Origin: Kyrpidia spormannii
Lineage (GTDB): Bacteria; Bacillota; Bacilli; Kyrpidiales; Kyrpidiaceae
Length of the DNA: 64,000 bases
Assembly (NCBI RefSeq): GCF_002804065.1
Contig: NZ_CP024955.1
Span: forward strand, 2,108,001 to 2,172,000
Direction of reading: 5' to 3'
Below are positions 8,399 through 38,302 of this stretch, piece after piece. The notes beneath the pieces were generated by a model, which saw nothing but the letters and a program-made list of their open reading frames with translations, did no database searches and was not told where the DNA came from. The position numbers and the translations under genes are program-made. The number at the start of each line of letters is the position of its first letter. Position 1 is the stretch's first letter.

Positions 8399-8899
8399 CT
8401 ATGGGCGGGGAGCCGTCCCGGTCTCCGCCCCCCGGGCTGCGGCACCGATGACCTTCGCCGCCCGAAGAAGGATCAGCAGACCGGCCGCCACATCCGGATC
8501 CCGAATCGCCCGGAACAGATCCATCATCCCCGGCGGCCGGTGCTCCCATTCCCGGGCCCCGGCGGGCTGACGCAACCCCTCTGCAACGATCTTGGCCGTT
8601 TCCGCCGCTCCTTGCAAGTCCACCGACGCCAATACCTCTCCTAAAGCCACCGCATTTTTTAACAACCGCTTTCCGCCTTGGGTGTTCACCTGATGGACCA
8701 GGATCTCCAGGACCTCTTCCCCAGATGCCGCCACATCCCGCAAAGTGCGCAGGATCCCTTTTTCACGCAACACGGCCAGTAGCTCCAAGGTCTCCTCCAA
8801 CGCCGGCGCGTATTTGGCCGCCATCTCCTGCCATCCCGGAGCGGCCGGTTGCTCCCCGCCCCCGACAGACCGTTTCACCATGCGGATCGGCTCAGCCAC
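8399..8899 (-). CDS. DUF1641 protein, formate dehydrogenase-associated (YrhD/YjgD-like)
   Basis: About 166 residues, mostly helical (ALEETLELLAVLREKGILRTLRD, ILVHQVNTQGGKRLLKNAVALGEVL, LFRAIRDPDVAAGLLILLRAAKVIG). DUF1641 proteins follow fdhF-like genes in many Bacillus and may be accessory subunits; the function is unproven. GTG at 8899 follows GGGGGAGGGCGGAC and overlaps the fdhF stop by 8 nt, indicating coupling. The open frame continues 29 codons upstream inside fdhF, which is judged spurious. Confidence 0.82.
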   Translation of the reverse strand: MAEPIRMVKRSVGGGEQPAAPGWQEMAAKYAPALEETLELLAVLREKGILRTLRDVAASGEEVLEILVHQVNTQGGKRLLKNAVALGEVLASVDLQGAAETAKIVAEGLRQPAGAREWEHRPPGMMDLFRAIRDPDVAAGLLILLRAAKVIGAAARGAETGTAPRP

Positions 8900-11867
8900 G
8901 TCCGCCCTCCCCCTTCCCCGGAAACACGTAATCCCGGCGCCGCCATTTTTCCTCAACTTCCACGCCGGATCTCGGCGTAGGCTCATGAAACCGCGGGTTA
9001 TGGATCGGCAGCGGCGTCGGACCCGATTTTTCCAAAATTTCCATCCGAACCTGAATCTCTTTGTACGCCGGGGTATGAGTCACCCGGTCGGTATGGGAGC
9101 CGGTGACATAGTTCACGGCAGCTTCAGTGGCCGTATTCATGGGCAAATACAGCTCCCGACCCCTCACCCGGTCGGTCACCAGCACCCGGATCACCACCTC
9201 CCCGAAAGGAGAGATGAGTTTCACCAGTGCCCCGGACTCGATCCCCCGCTCCTCGGCCAACTCCCGGGAAATCTCCACAAAGGCCCCGGGCACTTTGTAC
9301 CGCAGTCCCTCGGTGCGGTAGGTCATGTTTCCTTCGTGAAAATGTTCAAGGAGCCTTCCGTTGTTCAAGTGAAGGTCGTATTCCTCCGGCATTGTCACAG
9401 GCGGTACCCACTCCATCGGATAGAGCCTCGCCTGCCCGTCCGGGAAAGCAAACCTTTCTGCATACAGCAGCGGTGAATCGGTGCCGTCCTCGGCCACGGG
9501 CCACTGCAAGCTGCGGAATCCCTCCAGCCGGTCGTACCGCACCCCGGCAAAGAGAGGCGCCAACCTCGCCGCCTCGGCCATGATCTCCCCCGGGTGCTCG
9601 TACCGCCAATTCGCTCCCAGTCGATTCGCCACCGCCTGGATGATCTCCCAGTCCGGTTTGGATTCGCCGAGGGGTTCCAACGCCCGGTACAGTCGCTGAA
9701 TGCGCCGCTCGGTGTTGGTGAAAGTGCCTTCTTTCTCCAAACTCGGGGCGGCCGGCAGTACCACGTCCGCAAACTCTGCCGTGCGCGAAAGAAACATATC
9801 CTGGACCACCATGAAGTCCAACTTCGCAAACGCCGCTTGGACATAATGGGCATTGGCGTCCACCAAACTCATATCTTCGCCAATAATGTACATCGCCCGG
9901 AGATCTCCGGCGTGGATCGCATCCACCATCTCGTGATTATCCAGGCCCGGCTTCTCCGGCAGCTTGACGCCCCAGGCCACCTCGTAACGCTGGCGCACCG
10001 CCGGATCCTCAGCCCGCTCATAGCCGGGATAGTAGGCCGGCATGGCGCCAAAATCGCTGGTTCCCTGCACGTTGTTGTGCCCCCGCAGGGGATAAGCCCC
10101 GGTGCCCGGGCGGCCGTAGTTGCCCGTAACGAGCAGGAGATTGGAAATTGCCGTACTGGTATCGCTCCCTCCGCAGTGCTGGGTGACGCCCATCGCCCAC
10201 AGGACACACACCCTTTTCGCCTCATGAACCATCTGTGCCGCCCGGGTGAGATCCGCCTCGGAGATCCCCGTCACCGCCGCCGCCCGGGTGAGGGTGAAAT
10301 CCTTGAGACTCTCCACATACTCCGGCCAGCCCTTCACCCGTTTGGCCAGAAACTCCTTATCCTCCCACCCCTGGTCGATGATGTATTTGGTCACCGCCGC
10401 CAGCCAGACAAAGTCCGTCCCCGGGGCGGGGGGCAAAAACAAGTCCGCCCGCCTGGCCATCTCGTGCCGGCGCAGATCGGCGACGATCACCTTTTGACCG
10501 CGGAGTTTCTGCGCCCGTTTGACCCGGGTCGCCAAAACCGGGTGAGATTCCGCGGTATTGGACCCGATGATGATCACCAAATCCGCGGCGGCAATGTCGG
10601 CGATCGACCCGGAGTCCCCGCCGTAGCCCACGGTGCGGAACAGCCCCTGGGTGGCAGGAGACTGACAATATCGAGAGCAGTTGTCCACATTGTTCGTCCC
10701 CACGACAGCTCGGGCCAACTTTTGCATCAGGTACGCCTCTTCGTTGGTGCATTTGGACGAAGCGATAAACCCGAGAGCATCCGGCCCGTACTTCTCCCGT
10801 ACCGCTCCAAACCCCCGAGCGACAGCCTCCAGGGCTTCCTCCCAGGAGACTTCCACAAAAACCCCATCCCGACGAAGCAGGGGCCTGGTCAGGCGGTCTG
10901 GGCTGTTGATGTGTCCCCAGCCGAACTTCCCTTTGACACAGGTAGAAATCCCATTGACTGGCGCCTCGGGAGTCGGTTCGATTTTGAGAATATGACGCCC
11001 CTTGGTCCACACTTCAAAACTGCATCCCACGCCACAATAGGTGCACACCGTTTTCGTGCGTTTGATGCCTTGACTGCGCACCGCCGCCTCGGCGTCCGAG
11101 AGGGCGAGAATCGGCCCGTATCCCGGTTCCACCTCTTTGGTGACCTCGATCATCTCCCGCAGAACGCCGGGCTTCAGCCCCGTCATCACCCCGGCCTGGC
11201 CGAGCATGGATTTTTCCATGAGCGCATTGCACGGACAAACGGTGACGCAGTGCCCGCAAGATACACAGGAGGATTGGTCGATGGGTACGCCCCCGTCCCA
11301 CACCACCCGGGGACGCTCCAGGCTCCAGTCGATAGAGAGAGTTTCGTTGACCTGGAGATTCTGGCATGCCTCGACACATCGGCCGCACAGAATGCATTGG
11401 TTGGGGTCATACCGGTAAAAGGGATTCGATGCATCCACTTCGTAAGGTTTGGGGGAAAAGGGTTCGCGCTGATGCTGTACCCCCAGTTGTTTCACCGTAT
11501 TATGCACGACACAGTTGCCGTTGTTGTTGTCGCACACCGTGCAGTACAACTCGTGGTTCACAAGGATGCGATCCATCGCTTCGAGCCGCGCCAGGCGCAC
11601 CCGTTCCGACCGGGTGTCGATCCGCATCCCCTCAGTCACCTTGACACCGCAGGAACGGACCAATTCGCCATCGATCTCCACCAGACAGGTGTCACAGGTC
11701 TGAATGGGACCCAGGCTCGGGTGATAACACACATGGGGGATCTCCTCCCCCTGCTCCAACAGAACCTCCAGCACCGTCCGGTCCAGACGACCCCGTCGCA
11801 CCTCCCCGTTCACGTGAACGACCACCCCCGAAACCTCCCGGGTGATCCCATCCGCCCGCTCTGCCAT
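8892..11867 (-). CDS. fdhF: NAD-type formate dehydrogenase catalytic subunit, Mo/W-bisMGD
   Basis: Oxidises formate to CO2 in the cytoplasm. About 991 residues. N-terminal [2Fe-2S] domain (CYHPSLGPIQTCDTCLVEIDG), a HELYCTVCDNNNGNC cluster segment like NuoG, two ferredoxin 4Fe-4S motifs (CILCGRCVEAC, CVSCGHCVTVCPC), the molybdopterin-domain 4Fe-4S loop (CTYCGVGCSF ... CVKGKFGW) and a C-terminal dinucleotide-binding domain. In the active-site segment NCSRYCQSPATQGL the metal ligand position is Cys, not selenocysteine. ATG at 11867 follows AAAGGGGGACGAGACA. DUF1641 and moeA follow in the same operon. A terminator-bearing leader precedes it. Confidence 0.94.
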   Translation of the reverse strand: MAERADGITREVSGVVVHVNGEVRRGRLDRTVLEVLLEQGEEIPHVCYHPSLGPIQTCDTCLVEIDGELVRSCGVKVTEGMRIDTRSERVRLARLEAMDRILVNHELYCTVCDNNNGNCVVHNTVKQLGVQHQREPFSPKPYEVDASNPFYRYDPNQCILCGRCVEACQNLQVNETLSIDWSLERPRVVWDGGVPIDQSSCVSCGHCVTVCPCNALMEKSMLGQAGVMTGLKPGVLREMIEVTKEVEPGYGPILALSDAEAAVRSQGIKRTKTVCTYCGVGCSFEVWTKGRHILKIEPTPEAPVNGISTCVKGKFGWGHINSPDRLTRPLLRRDGVFVEVSWEEALEAVARGFGAVREKYGPDALGFIASSKCTNEEAYLMQKLARAVVGTNNVDNCSRYCQSPATQGLFRTVGYGGDSGSIADIAAADLVIIIGSNTAESHPVLATRVKRAQKLRGQKVIVADLRRHEMARRADLFLPPAPGTDFVWLAAVTKYIIDQGWEDKEFLAKRVKGWPEYVESLKDFTLTRAAAVTGISEADLTRAAQMVHEAKRVCVLWAMGVTQHCGGSDTSTAISNLLLVTGNYGRPGTGAYPLRGHNNVQGTSDFGAMPAYYPGYERAEDPAVRQRYEVAWGVKLPEKPGLDNHEMVDAIHAGDLRAMYIIGEDMSLVDANAHYVQAAFAKLDFMVVQDMFLSRTAEFADVVLPAAPSLEKEGTFTNTERRIQRLYRALEPLGESKPDWEIIQAVANRLGANWRYEHPGEIMAEAARLAPLFAGVRYDRLEGFRSLQWPVAEDGTDSPLLYAERFAFPDGQARLYPMEWVPPVTMPEEYDLHLNNGRLLEHFHEGNMTYRTEGLRYKVPGAFVEISRELAEERGIESGALVKLISPFGEVVIRVLVTDRVRGRELYLPMNTATEAAVNYVTGSHTDRVTHTPAYKEIQVRMEILEKSGPTPLPIHNPRFHEPTPRSGVEVEEKWRRRDYVFPGKGEGGRG

Positions 11868-11890: not shown

Positions 11891-12034
11891 CAAAAAACCA
11901 TCGCAACGATCGGCTGTCGGCCGGTACACTCCCCATGCACCTCAGCCATATTCCGATTCATCGCGATGGTTAGTCACCAGCACTCCTTCGGTACCGTGTT
12001 CCAACCGGTATACCCTTGTTTGCTGATCCAACCC
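11891..12034 (-). promoter_or_regulatory. candidate structured RNA leader with terminator, upstream of fdhF (copy A)
   Basis: The minus-strand leader contains GGTTGGAACACGGTACC, six variable nt, then GTGCTGGTGACTAACC (11968-12006). The last AACC is also the start of a terminator 5' arm (AACCATCGC, 11963-11971); the 3' arm GCGATGG is at 11898-11904, followed by a T run to 11892. The hairpin GGTT...AACC and the terminator therefore cannot coexist fully. The same element occurs in front of the OFA transporter remnant on the other strand. A weak promoter (TGGAGG, 17 nt, TATAGG) lies near 12039-12067. I do not recognise a known riboswitch class. Confidence 0.7.
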
Positions 12035-12039
12035 GTGAC

Positions 12040-12420
12040 CTATAATTCATTCATCCGGGTCCCTCCATCGATAGGCCGATCAAAAACGAATACTGAAACC
12101 ACCTCATCCTGATCGACGTCAATATCGGTGAACAATTTTACAAAATTCGCACCCACCAAAGCCTCCATGTCCACGGGACGCGTTTGTTGGTATAATTCTT
12201 TAATCATGTGCGTTCTCGCCTGCCAAATCATCATCCGTCCCTGATCGGTGCGCGCAATAAATCGCTCAACCGGGCTGAGGCTCCCGGCCATGTGGGCGAT
12301 GGCCCAGTTTCCAAAAAAGGTCACCTTGATCTTTTCCGGCCCCTTGCCGATATGGTTTTTCCGATAGGCCCGCACCAAATTCGCGAACGCTTGCTCGCGA
12401 TCCCGCCGCGACTCCTCCAT
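12040..12420 (-). CDS. DUF2294 domain protein
   Basis: A 126-residue soluble protein containing RAYRKNHIGKGPEKIKVTFFGNWAIAHMAGSLSPVERFI, the typical DUF2294 core, and a C-terminal VVSVFVFDRPI strand. Members are common near formate dehydrogenase genes in Bacillota but have no established function. ATG at 12420 follows GGGGATGAAAGG. Own promoter upstream. Read-through would enter the fdhF leader, so the leader separates its expression from that of fdhF. Confidence 0.82.
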   Translation of the reverse strand: MEESRRDREQAFANLVRAYRKNHIGKGPEKIKVTFFGNWAIAHMAGSLSPVERFIARTDQGRMMIWQARTHMIKELYQQTRPVDMEALVGANFVKLFTDIDVDQDEVVSVFVFDRPIDGGTRMNEL

Positions 12421-12441
12421 CCTTTCATCCCCCGCAAAAAC

Positions 12442-12471
12442 AATGTAGCATTATTCTAAGAACGGAGTCAA
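12442..12471 (-). promoter_or_regulatory. promoter for the DUF2294 gene
   Basis: Minus strand TTGACT, 18 nt, TACATT, about 20 nt upstream of the DUF2294 ribosome-binding site and divergent to fdhD. Confidence 0.55.
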
Positions 12472-12550
12472 CCAAACAGCTCCGGCCGCTTGGCGTGAAC
12501 AAAGAGGTCCGCACGCCGGCGTGCTGGGAATCTAAAGCGAGGAGATCTTC

Positions 12551-13357
12551 ATGGCGGAAAACGTCCGCTCGTATAAAGCCAAAAAAATCACTCTCGGTCA
12601 CGTCCAAGAGTTCGACGATACGGTGGCGGTGGAAACACCGCTCACTCTCTATGTGAACGACGAGGAATTCGTGACCCTGGTCTGCACCCCCGACTGTGTG
12701 GAGGAGCTTATTATCGGCTTTCTCGCCTCGGAAGGGCTAATCCGGGGCCCGGAAGACATTCAATCTCTCACCATGGACGCCTCGGACGGCATCGTGTGGG
12801 CGTCACTGCCCAGGCTGTCGACACCCGCCCGGAGGATGTTCGGAAAACGGATCCTCACCAGTTGCTGCGGCCGAGGGCGGACTTCATTTTATTTTTTCAA
12901 CGACGCCCGCACCGCCCGGAAGATCATCGGCACCTGGACCGTGTCCCCGGAAGCCTGTTTTAGAGCCATGGCTTCTTTGCAGCAGGCATCCCAGCTTTTT
13001 CACGCCACCGGAGGCATCCATCACGCGGCTTTGGCACAATCTTCCGGGGATCTCGTCGCTGTCCGCGCGGACGTCGGACGGCACAACACGCTCGACAAAC
13101 TGTACGGCTGGGCCCTCAGGGAAAAGTTTGACGCGACTCAGGTCATGGTGGTGTTCAGCGGCCGCGTCTCCTCGGAGGTGCTGTTGAAGGTCGCCAAGAT
13201 GGGCGCGCCGATCCTGCTCTCCAAATCGGCCCCGACAGACCTCGGCTTACGCCTGGCCGATGAACTCGGAGTGACGGTGGCAGGGTTTCTTCGGGGGAAT
13301 GGGATGAATGTCTACACCCACGCCGAACGAATCACCGATGAGAATGTGACCAAATGA
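12551..13357 (+). CDS. fdhD: formate dehydrogenase sulfurtransferase / accessory protein
   Basis: Passes sulfur from a cysteine desulfurase to the bis-MGD cofactor of formate dehydrogenase. 268 residues, normal length. Key signature TSCCGRG at 103-109 carries the sulfur-relay Cys pair as adjacent residues, the form usual in Gram-positives. Downstream family blocks are FHATGGIHHAAL, VRADVGRHNTLDKLYGWAL, VFSGRVSSEVLLKVAKMGAPIL and a C-terminal GFLRGNGMNVYTHAERI. ATG follows GAGGAGATCTTC. It is transcribed away from the fdhF operon and towards the OFA remnant. Confidence 0.94.
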   Translation: MAENVRSYKAKKITLGHVQEFDDTVAVETPLTLYVNDEEFVTLVCTPDCVEELIIGFLASEGLIRGPEDIQSLTMDASDGIVWASLPRLSTPARRMFGKRILTSCCGRGRTSFYFFNDARTARKIIGTWTVSPEACFRAMASLQQASQLFHATGGIHHAALAQSSGDLVAVRADVGRHNTLDKLYGWALREKFDATQVMVVFSGRVSSEVLLKVAKMGAPILLSKSAPTDLGLRLADELGVTVAGFLRGNGMNVYTHAERITDENVTK

Positions 13358-13367
13358 CGAAAACTTA

Positions 13368-13396
13368 TTGACAAAAATCAAAATCCCGATTATAAT
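13368..13396 (+). promoter_or_regulatory. consensus sigma-A promoter of the OFA-remnant leader
   Basis: TTGACA, exactly 17 nt, TATAAT: a perfect promoter starting 10 nt after the fdhD stop. Predicted transcription start is near 13403. Confidence 0.88.
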
Positions 13397-13402
13397 AATC
13401 AG

Positions 13403-13525
13403 CGTCAATGTGCAGAATGAGAAGACCGTTTAGCGGTTGGTACACGGTACCCTCGTGCTGGTGGCTAGCCGCCACAACTTCGGGATCGTTTCCCTGGATC
13501 CCGGTTGTGGCGGCTTTTCTCATTC
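13403..13525 (+). promoter_or_regulatory. candidate structured RNA leader with terminator, upstream of OFA remnant (copy B)
   Basis: Contains GGTTGGTACACGGTACC, CTC, then GTGCTGGTGGCTAGCC (13435-13470), nearly identical to the element upstream of fdhF. The terminator is strong: GCCGCCACAAC (13468-13478) pairs perfectly with GTTGTGGCGGC (13504-13514), then TTTT. The 5' arm starts inside the conserved element, so GGTGG..CCGCC can compete with it. The whole leader is bracketed by complementary GAATGAGAA (13415-13423) and TTCTCATTC (13517-13525). A ligand-binding aptamer or a protein-bound antiterminator are both possible. Confidence 0.72.
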
Positions 13526-13569: not shown

Positions 13570-13997
13570 ATGAATAGTTCAAAAAATCGCTGGATCATCG
13601 CCCTGCTCAGCTCCAATTGATCGCCTTCCTGTATATGCCGTCTCTTCACCAGGCACTGTTGTTTGAAGTCCTACTTTTCGCCATCATTTCCTGCTACGGC
13701 GGCGGCTTCGCCTCGATTCCGGCCTACATCGGAGACCTGTTCGGCACCAAGCAATTGGGCGCCATACACGGGTACATTTTGACGGCCTGGTCAGCGGCGG
13801 GCATCGTCGGTCCCATGGTGGTGGCAGCGATCAAAGATGCCACGAAATCCTACGACGCCACCTTCTACGTCTTCGCCGGCCTTTTGGCTGTCGCCTTGGC
13901 CGTTTCGCTCTGGATTCGCTTGGAGATCCGGGTTTTGCGCCAGGCGAATGAGTCCCAGCCGACGCACACGAATCCTATCTCCTCGGCGGAAAACTAA
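13570..13997 (+). pseudogene. OFA-type (oxalate/formate antiporter family) MFS transporter remnant with a large internal deletion
   Basis: A good ribosome-binding site (AAAGGGGGAAACTGGA) precedes ATG at 13570, which encodes MNSSKNRWIIALLSSN then stops at 13620. From 13617, in another frame, about 126 codons match the C-terminal half-domain of OFA/YhjX-like MFS proteins (FGTKQLGAIHGYILTAWSAAGIVGPMVVAAI). A normal member is about 400-440 residues, so roughly 280 codons plus the frame are lost between the N-terminal helix start and the last membrane segments. Promoter and leader are intact. Association with fdhF and fdhD suggests the ancestor moved formate or oxalate. Confidence 0.8.
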
Positions 13998-18644: not shown

Positions 18645-18835
18645 GGGTAAGAGCCCTGCCATGCCGTGTCCCTGAGTTTTGAACCTGCCCTCGGCAGGTG
18701 GGTGACCTGCGTCACGGTTTACATGTCCACCCGAAGATGGCTTATGCGCTCCGCGCCGACCCCGGTCTCCCTTTTAAACGGTGTTGGCTCAAAACTTCAC
18801 GATAGATCACTAACACAGAAGGGCCCAAACCTACG
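18645..18835 (-). ncRNA. ssrS: 6S RNA (6S-1 / BsrA type)
   Basis: Fills most of the 400-nt gap between aspS and rarA, the position of B. subtilis bsrA. Minus strand shows the 6S plan: closing stem GGGCCCT (about 18820-18826) with AGGGCTC (18651-18657), continued by TGTGT with ACACG; internal stem GTTTTGAGCC with GGTTCAAAAC flanking a long central hairpin; total near 180 nt. A possible promoter TTGCAC, 17 nt, TACCAT lies at 18882-18910 and a terminator at 18598-18623. 6S RNA binds the housekeeping RNA polymerase holoenzyme and templates pRNA. The exact 5' end is uncertain. Confidence 0.85.
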
Positions 18836-36412: not shown

Positions 36413-38302
36413 ATCGAGTAGGAGGGGGCGGCTAGCCCCCGTCCTCTCACACCACCGGACATGCGGGTCCGCATCCGGCGGTTCACCAAGCTTGACTGAG
36501 CCTTCGGTAACGTTCGGTTAAACTCATCAGACCTTGAGCCTGCCAGTAGGTGTTGTCCAGGGCTCGATTCATCGGCCCATGGGCCATTCGCCACGGCCCT
36601 TTGCGGGCATTGGCGAATGGGTGTACCACCCACTCCGGCAACCCCAGTGCGCGCAGTTCACGGTATCGCGTCCGCACCCGTTTCCACTGTTTCCAGAGAC
36701 ACATCCGCAGCCTCCGCCGGATCCATCCTTCGATTTCTTCGAATGTGCTCGGCGTTTCGGCCAGGGCAAAGTATCCGATCCAGCCGCCCAGGTACGTATT
36801 CAGCCGTCGGATTCGTTCCTCCATGGCGATCGGTTGGTTCCTCGCCGTGAGGGCTCGGATCTTGGTCTTGACCCGGTCGATCGACTGCCTGGCCAGGCGA
36901 ATCCGGATTTCCCCGGCTTTGCGTTTGTACATGCTGAACCCCAGAAACTTGAGTTTCCACGGTCGGTCCACCGTGCTCTTCTGCTCGTTAAGCTTGAGTT
37001 TTAACCGCTCCTGCAGGAATTTCCGGATACTGGCCAGGACTCTCTCCCCCGCCCGTCTGCTTCGAACGTAGATGTTGGCATCATCCGCATACCGGACGAA
37101 CCTGTGGCCCCTCTTTTCCAGTTCTTTATCCAGGTCATCCAGAAGGATATTCGCCAACAGTGGACGGGGCGGCCCGCCCTGTGGCGTCCCTTCCTCCCTT
37201 TCCATGACCACCCCGTTCACCATGATCCCTGCCTGGAGGTATCGGCGAATGACCTTGAGTACTCGTTTATCCGTGACCTTCCGGGCGACCCGGGCCATCA
37301 GGATGTCATGATTCACCCGGTCGAAGAACTTTTCCAGGTCCATGTCCACGGCCCATTCGTATCCTTCTTCCACATACTGCCTCGCCTTCTTGACCGCGTC
37401 GTGGGCCTTTCTCCCGGGACGGAACCCGTAGCTGGCCTCCGAAAATTGCGGATCAAAGATCGGTGTCAGCACTTGCAGGAGGGCCTGTTGGATCAGGCGG
37501 TCCATCACGGTGGGGATCCCCAGCATCCGCTGGCCTCCCCCGAGTTTCGGGATTTCGACCCGGCGCACGGGCTGCGGTCGGTAGGTCCCCGCGAGCAGTT
37601 CTTCCCGGATGCGCGGCCACTCGGCTTGGATCTGTTCCCGGAGGTTTTCCGTGGGAATGCCGTCCACGCCGGGCGCGCCCTTGTTCTGCTCCACCCGCTT
37701 CAGGGCAGCCAGCATGTTACCCCTGGCCACCACCTTCTCCATCAGGCCGTCACCTTGATCTCCGCGAGGTGAGGCTCCGCTTTGTGCCGGAGAAGGGCTC
37801 GGCTCTCCCACGGTCCCCCGTGGCTTCACCACTTCCTCCCGTGGGCAGTCCCTGTTCAGGGTTTTCGGCTGTCTTCGTCCTTCTCGCGAACGCATCGGTC
37901 TCACCTCTGACTTGATGTTCGGGCCTTCCCCCTGAATTCATGACCTCCTGGGTACTATGCCCTCTGCTGACTCCTGCCGGTTCAGCCGAACCTCTCGGTT
38001 CGGGGTTGCCAGTTTTCCTGGTGTATCCGGCAGGCCTCCCCGGGTAAGAACGCTGACCTTCCCCCCGCGCCCGCCTCATATACTCCCCCGCCCCTTGGCA
38101 GCCTTGGATTTCGCTGTGTTGCGCCAGCTCATCCGAACGGTGCAGCCTCGTATGAGGTTCTTGTTCATCGGGCCGTGGGTTTGCCTCCGGCTTCCTTCGG
38201 ATTCCGCCTCGCAGCGGACACCCTTGCCTTTGGCTAGCAGACTCGTGCTGCCTCGCCTGCAGTGGACTTTCACCACCCAGTCAACGCCCATGCCGGGCGC
38301 AC
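36413..38302 (-). mobile_element. group IIC intron (bacterial class C)
   Basis: 5' end GTGCGCCCGGC at 38302 directly follows the fad-operon terminator (T run, then CTGC). 3' end at about 36413 ends in ...CTACTCGAT. Domain V is visible as GAACCGCCGGATGCGG with CCGCATGTCCGGT (about 36442-36476), followed by a domain VI hairpin (GGGGGCTAGCCGCCCCC). Length 1,890 nt with an internal reverse-transcriptase ORF lacking an endonuclease domain. Positions 37896-38302 are ribozyme domains I-III without a separate gene. Confidence 0.9.
36483..37895 (-). CDS. ltrA: group II intron reverse transcriptase/maturase (class C)
   Basis: About 470 residues. RT blocks are clear: KRVEQNKGAPGVDGIPTENL, RRVEIPKLGGGQRMLGIPTVMDRLIQQALL, SYGFRPGRKAHDAV, AVDMDLEKFFDRVNHDIL, catalytic FVRYADDANIYV, thumb and maturase domain X (LNTYLGGWIGYFALAETPSTFEEIEGWIRRRLR). 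No HNH endonuclease, as expected for class C. Odd: the nearly invariant GTPQGGPLSPLLANI block reads GTPQGGPPRPLLANI. ATG at 37895 follows AGAGGTGAGACCG. Confidence 0.92.
   Translation of the reverse strand: MRSREGRRQPKTLNRDCPREEVVKPRGTVGEPSPSPAQSGASPRGDQGDGLMEKVVARGNMLAALKRVEQNKGAPGVDGIPTENLREQIQAEWPRIREELLAGTYRPQPVRRVEIPKLGGGQRMLGIPTVMDRLIQQALLQVLTPIFDPQFSEASYGFRPGRKAHDAVKKARQYVEEGYEWAVDMDLEKFFDRVNHDILMARVARKVTDKRVLKVIRRYLQAGIMVNGVVMEREEGTPQGGPPRPLLANILLDDLDKELEKRGHRFVRYADDANIYVRSRRAGERVLASIRKFLQERLKLKLNEQKSTVDRPWKLKFLGFSMYKRKAGEIRIRLARQSIDRVKTKIRALTARNQPIAMEERIRRLNTYLGGWIGYFALAETPSTFEEIEGWIRRRLRMCLWKQWKRVRTRYRELRALGLPEWVVHPFANARKGPWRMAHGPMNRALDNTYWQAQGLMSLTERYRRLSQAW

Follow-up and report, generated by a model that had tools for sequence, protein, structure and literature searches.

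The DNA analysed, referred to as the window, is a stretch of 64,000 nucleotides from the genome of Kyrpidia spormannii. The features described here lie around the formate dehydrogenase gene fdhF and are collected in Table 1. Two near-identical copies of a short hairpin element are found 1.4 kb apart in this genome, copy A after the stop codon of a DUF2294 gene and before the start of fdhF, and copy B in the leader of a transporter gene. The DUF2294 protein matched the PF10057 profile with 112.6 bits, the curated cut-off being 23. The start of fdhF was placed at 11867, behind AAAGGGGG, after direct inspection of the sequence; the start of a longer reading frame, at 11936, would fall within the terminator. 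An earlier note on this DNA had taken the gene behind copy B for a remnant of an OFA-type transporter. It is a transporter remnant, but the best model was that of the L-lactate MFS transporters, and OFA models fitted more weakly. The gene is decaying, with an internal deletion in the window and, in the related genome G001, a further deletion comprising copy B and most of the transporter (L014). Intact relatives stand behind DUF2294 genes of the formate branch, defined below, at two other loci (L219 and L225). Elsewhere in the window, group II intron domains (Rfam RF02001, RF01998, and RF00029) were found at 36413-38218 and a 6S RNA (RF00013) at 18649-18827, both on the minus strand.

Table 1. 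Features of the window at the two copies of the element, in window positions.
Feature	Position	Strand	Remarks
fdhF, formate dehydrogenase alpha subunit	8892..11867	-	TIGR01591, E 1.9e-257
Terminator, fdhF leader	11892..11971	-	Hairpin 11896-11971, -43 kcal/mol, z -6.2, then six U
Element A, putative antiterminator hairpin	11968..12006	-	GGUUGG-AACA-CGGUAC-loop-GUGCUG-GUGA-CUAACC; kept in G001 and G002
DUF2294 / MpsC gene, PF10057, 126 aa	12040..12420	-	Pfam E 1.3e-32; candidate trans-acting antiterminator
Promoter-like site TTGACT-18-TACATT, upstream of DUF2294 gene	12442..12471	-	Kept in G002
fdhD, formate dehydrogenase accessory sulfurtransferase, divergent neighbour	12551..13357	+	PF02634, E 2.5e-81
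Sigma-70-type consensus promoter for copy B, TTGACA-17-TATAAT	13368..13396	+	12/12 match
Element B, putative antiterminator hairpin	13435..13470	+	GGUUGG-UACA-CGGUAC-CCUC-GUGCUG-GUGG-CUAGCC
Terminator, transporter leader	13467..13519	+	Hairpin 13467-13515, -35 kcal/mol, z -7.5, then four U
OFA / L-lactate-type MFS transporter remnant	13570..13997	+	Start and last quarter remain; in-frame stop, internal deletion

The sequences that the earlier note had quoted for the two copies were verified exactly, and its count of about 30 identical positions agrees with the 30 invariant columns found between A and B. The overlap it had claimed is also present, since the last four nucleotides of each copy are the first four of the terminator hairpin. 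It had further pointed to a closing GGTT/ARCC pairing that persists while the bases change. The pairing is kept, but the change between AACC and AGCC is one-sided, from A-U to G-U, and not compensatory; copies A and B alone therefore give no compensatory evidence, which is supplied by the homologues. The 17-nt 5' half of the element has two exact matches in the window, where 0.16 would be expected even with three mismatches, and the pattern of the whole element has exactly two matches in the 3.35 Mb genome and none in the reversed control. Folding energies were -14.8 kcal/mol (z -2.8) for element A and -15.8 kcal/mol (z -1.7) for element B.

Both element and terminator precede fdhF in two congeneric genomes, G001 (FdhF 98% identical) and G002 (84%). 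The lower stem in G002 is identical; the changes affect the apical loop and a portion of the inner helix, and one apical pair is broken. Of the DUF2294 gene only the first and last codons are left in G002 (L007/L015), where promoter, element, terminator, and fdhF are retained, and no other DUF2294 copy was found in this genome, which is 86% complete. This argues that the element can outlast the adjacent DUF2294 gene, with the reservation that the genome is incomplete and the pair broken.

Homologues were sought with two models, R1 from the four Kyrpidia copies only and R2 from non-Kyrpidia sequences only. At E<=0.0031, R2 gave 35 copies, spread over 7 families and 30 of the 399 Bacilli genomes searched. 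R1 found nothing in the 399 class genomes beyond its four training copies. Its next match, in G182 (E 0.006), lies within coding sequence and was considered a chance match, as were two matches near E 0.003, both also within coding sequence, in a search of 299 phylum genomes with R2. A pattern scan over 84,980 species returned 25 copies, 24 of them directly before a terminator, in Alicyclobacillus, Ferroacidibacillus, Sulfoacidibacillus, Tumebacillus, Aneurinibacillus, and a Bacillota MAG; a match in a Saprospiraceae MAG (L163), without terminator, was attributed to chance. Many further copies came out upstream of formate genes, where the earlier note had proposed to look. Within the window, R2 ranked copy B first (E 0.06, or 1.2e-4 in the leader of B alone) and recovered copy A precisely at its position (E 0.11 in 147 nt); R1, searched in 121 kb, gave three matches at E<=1, all three on the element. 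The fdhF leaders of other genera have the order DUF2294 gene, hairpin, terminator, and fdhF, with diverged sequence. Homology of the window copies to the Bacilli-wide family is established by the reciprocal model matches at exact positions and by the same gene order.

The computed consensus of the family is GGA-Y-UGGY ... GUAC-N3-6-GUGC ... RYUA-Y-UCC in its general form, and the Kyrpidia form is shorter by one position on both sides of the lower stem. Located behind formate-branch DUF2294 genes, a third group (L222, L226, and L227) combines the Kyrpidia-type lower stem with another apical helix, in which a C-G pair is among those exchanged for G-C. The apical helix covaries across homologues, so compensatory changes do exist. 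In the Kyrpidia-type set one apical pair is C-G in four copies and G-C in three, and in 40 distinct copies 96.7% of the pair cells hold standard pairs, compared with at most 50% in slid registers. For these 40 copies the covariation score was 0.188 against 0.126 in shuffles, with none of 500 shuffles as high, and changes on both sides of a pair were seen in 20 cells against 7.6 in shuffles. The alignment was fitted to the model and hence favours it, and the surrounding registers serve as control. In some alignments MAFFT put the variable apical helix in the wrong place, and pair counts were therefore taken from model-fitted or small sets. The lower stem contains one invariant G-U pair and a Y-N mismatch, and a U-G in the apical helix is almost equally constant. 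The internal and apical loops differ among copies in both length and sequence, conservation is confined to the helices, and no junction or pseudoknot was seen. Constant helices with variable loops resemble, we infer, a site where a protein reads a distorted helix more than they resemble a ligand pocket. A search of the leaders for a second, upstream copy of the element gave none in general. Six leaders of the Aneurinibacillus type (L118-L121, L142, and L146) share a conserved GATTGNTGAAAACGCATTC approximately 60 nt upstream of the element, and L124 has a separate hairpin upstream of it; both are possibly second sites.

At gathering thresholds, Rfam 15 held no matching family for the window copies or for 22 homologous loci. 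With the limit relaxed to E<=10 only folP was reported on the element, at 18.3 bits against a threshold of 99. The earlier note had set three conditions against itself, an Rfam match (against novelty), the absence of further copies near formate genes, and a lack of covariation in homologues, and none of these came true.

The overlap between the element and the 5' arm of the terminator was computed as at least 1 nt in 42 of 44 distinct copies, the commonest length being 5 nt, usually ACTCC or ATTCC. The values for L147 and L152 were negative, and inspection by eye pointed to a longer hairpin, reaching the element, that the script had missed. In the staphylococcal loci L144, L145, and L147 the apical strand GUACCUGG can, by eye, pair with a downstream CCAGGUAC-U6, which seems to be another terminator layout with the same mutual exclusion. 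Among distinct copies the element alone folds with -8 to -17 kcal/mol, compared with -22 to -48 for most of the terminators. The terminator is far more stable and should win unaided, and read-through would thus require a stabilised element. Homologues, overlap, and covariation all support the proposal of a regulatory RNA which competes with a terminator in the leaders of formate genes, and we consider it highly probable that the element is a cis-acting antiterminator.

At most copies the target is fdhF. In the staphylococcal loci the element stands between a DUF2294 gene and the gene for an NAD-dependent formate dehydrogenase (S. aureus 6ttb_A, E 3e-198). Further targets are a FocA-type formate/nitrite channel (PF01226, 2e-81), MoaA, MoeA, and the OFA/lactate MFS transporter of the window, and in the third group the next genes encode FdhD and an FdhF/YdeP-type oxidoreductase. 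The element was also found before genes for cytochrome bd subunit I (cydA), a TRIC/UPF0126 protein (PF03458), and a small unidentified membrane protein; these three are not obviously formate genes, which counts against the reading proposed below. In three Alicyclobacillus loci (L165, L166, and L168) the copy before cydA lies some 3 kb upstream of that before fdhF, and the cydA copies suggest that formate oxidation is coupled to the cytochrome bd oxidase. The occurrence of one element before two unrelated formate dehydrogenases speaks for formate and against molybdenum. Among the inputs named in the earlier note formate fits best, and the molybdenum-cofactor signal it had also considered is argued against by the cofactor-free NAD-formate dehydrogenase and the FocA channel as targets. 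Formate is likely to be the signal, an inference for which there are no effector data.

The earlier note had mentioned an RNA-binding antiterminator without naming a protein, and a candidate now exists in the DUF2294 protein, whose gene lies immediately upstream of copy A. Among the 69 fdhF loci with upstream sequence, the element was present in 14/14 with an adjacent DUF2294 gene and in 2/55 without (Fisher 8e-13). One of these loci, L087, was assigned by eye, without which the former count is 13/14; the sample is not random, and the counts are inflated by relatedness among the genomes. A PF10057 protein is encoded in all 30 genomes with R2 matches, compared with 224 of 399 overall. The linkage extends beyond fdhF, with DUF2294 genes adjoining the element in either orientation at the genes for NAD-formate dehydrogenase, FocA, the TRIC protein, and the unidentified membrane protein, making five kinds of target. 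There is no adjacent DUF2294 gene at L064/L146 and at several moaA, moeA, and cydA copies, and G002 keeps the element after losing the gene; both count against DUF2294 as partner. In none of the loci examined does a DUF2294 gene lie directly behind the terminator of the element, an arrangement shared with licT-bglP and glcT-ptsG. In the protein tree the DUF2294 proteins of the formate branch form one clade (27/27, support 1.0). The predicted model of the protein (pLDDT 89) gave mixed folds in structural comparison, with a best Foldseek E of 0.026 and VIA Z of at most 7.4; none of the RNA-binding families was prominent, though one is not thereby ruled out. At nine loci the PF10057 genes belong to a group apart, of the FQRxxxGRGPQE type, and no attenuator was noticed in the downstream sequence inspected, an observation which counts against the protein as partner. 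For a member of the family in S. aureus, mpsC, deletion gave no growth phenotype, and the gene is described as the dispensable third gene of a bicarbonate-uptake operon, behind a weak terminator (PMC6689103); it is from this staphylococcal operon that the name MpsC derives. No regulatory role for MpsC or DUF2294 was found in the literature searched. On balance we regard DUF2294 as the probable partner of the element, although binding is inferred and no binding data are available.

The mechanism we propose is as follows. Transcription would begin upstream, for copy B at its own promoter and for copy A at that of the DUF2294 gene, and the element would be made first. Unaided, the terminator would draw the final 4-5 nt of the element into the base of its own stem, and transcription would stop before the structural gene, leaving the default state OFF. 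A trans-acting factor holding the element at GGAYUGG/YUAYUCC and the apical GUAC/GUGC would block the terminator, and fdhF, the transporter, or another formate gene would be transcribed. As factor the small basic protein encoded by the adjacent DUF2294 gene is most likely, and as signal formate. To this reading, a protein-dependent antiterminator with default OFF, probably stabilised by a DUF2294 protein responding to formate, we assign a probability of roughly 0.62; switching in vivo is inferred, without experimental data.

Several other explanations have to be weighed against it. The suspicion that the two copies are a chance or mobile repeat without regulatory role arises from a near-identical pair 1.4 kb apart in one genome. 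It is already contradicted by conservation, synteny, and covariation: the element stays before fdhF in three related genomes while its apical loop diverges, at least seven bacterial families have it at formate genes, and the overlap is kept although the terminators differ. We therefore give this suspicion practically no weight. Less remote, but still improbable, is a small-molecule riboswitch, in which the hairpin of about 40 nt would itself bind formate or another anion and so beat the terminator, DUF2294 being a mere metabolic neighbour. In its favour, there are short aptamers that overlap a terminator, G002 has kept the element but not DUF2294, and the conserved positions include a Y-N mismatch and the invariant G-U pair. 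Against it, the helices are conserved and the loops vary, with no junction or pseudoknot seen, DUF2294 follows the element to unrelated targets, and a second DUF2294 branch goes with a different hairpin of like architecture.

Stabilisation by some other RNA-binding protein seems about as improbable. The genome encodes one ANTAR protein, approximately 0.48 Mb from the element of the window, and one GlpP protein, an unknown protein is also conceivable, and some copies have no adjacent DUF2294 gene. ANTAR-dependent attenuators (EutV, NasR, AmiR) resemble the element in that protein-stabilised hairpins prevent a terminator. An ANTAR site consists of paired hairpins whose six-nucleotide loop is conserved, whereas the element is one hairpin whose short apical loops are not conserved and lack that loop, and neither the ANTAR nor the GlpP family explains the DUF2294 linkage. 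The RAT sites of BglG, SacY, LicT, and GlcT are alike in that the hairpin overlaps the 5' arm of the terminator and the regulator gene lies just upstream. RAT is a hairpin of about 30-40 nt with small internal loops, and the regulator is upstream of the attenuated gene in licT-bglP and glcT-ptsG. The element differs in sequence and loops, and its targets are formate genes, not sugar PTS genes. A LicT/BglG-type factor was rejected, since no protein with the CAT_RBD (PF03123) was found in the genome of the window (G000), G001, or G002; control genomes such as B. subtilis were positive. Somewhat more open, though still rather doubtful, is that the same RNA switch answers to another effector, i.e., molybdate or Moco status, redox or oxygen, or bicarbonate. 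The genes moaA, moeA, and fdhF are Moco genes, cydA is respiratory, and the sister DUF2294 branch is associated with bicarbonate transporters; on the other side, the staphylococcal NAD-formate dehydrogenase is independent of molybdenum, and the FocA and OFA-type transporters point to formate. The Moco riboswitch (RF01055), which the element recalls through molybdoenzyme and Moco genes among its targets, matched no copy tested, nor did other Rfam cis-regulators. A DUF2294-dependent antiterminator responding to formate remains our preferred reading.

The two DUF2294 branches stand apart in the protein tree, with 27 and 52 members and support of 1.0 and 0.95. Behind genes of the second, GRGS-type branch there is often another hairpin, GGGAG-UCUUCAA...UUGAAGA-UAAACC, which runs into a terminator and precedes genes for SbtA (PF05982, a bicarbonate transporter) or DabB/NuoL-like proteins. 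It covaries, and no Rfam family matches it. With the 3' side UUGAAGA-UAAACCGG it was seen directly downstream of DUF2294 at ten loci, and it occurs in tandem at three (L191, L192, and L215). The chances appear even that PF10057 as a whole represents, in Bacilli, a new family of antitermination proteins which sense metabolites and bind RNA. The GKGP branch would then sense formate and bind the hairpin described here, at sites before formate channels, Moco genes, and formate dehydrogenases of two unrelated kinds, and the GRGS branch would bind the GGGAG hairpin before SbtA/DabB.

Antitermination as a type of mechanism is already known. The analysis adds to it an RNA family that Rfam lacks, a formate regulon, and what is likely a new system of protein-RNA antitermination. 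Our searches of the literature on DUF2294, fdhF leaders, and formate riboswitches gave nothing relevant, and no formate-responsive RNA regulator was found there. The protein beside the element in the window belongs to a family of which the literature searched describes only a dispensable member, in the bicarbonate-uptake operon of staphylococci (PMC6689103). PF10057 is without known function and present in 224 of the 399 sampled Bacilli genomes, and if the proposed reading is true the family would gain a job. It would also name a formate regulon in Bacilli, the staphylococcal formate dehydrogenase included, add one more protein-RNA pair to the few known antiterminators, and offer a formate-inducible part for the engineering of one-carbon metabolism. 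The finding points to an undescribed way for bacteria to turn on one-carbon metabolism.
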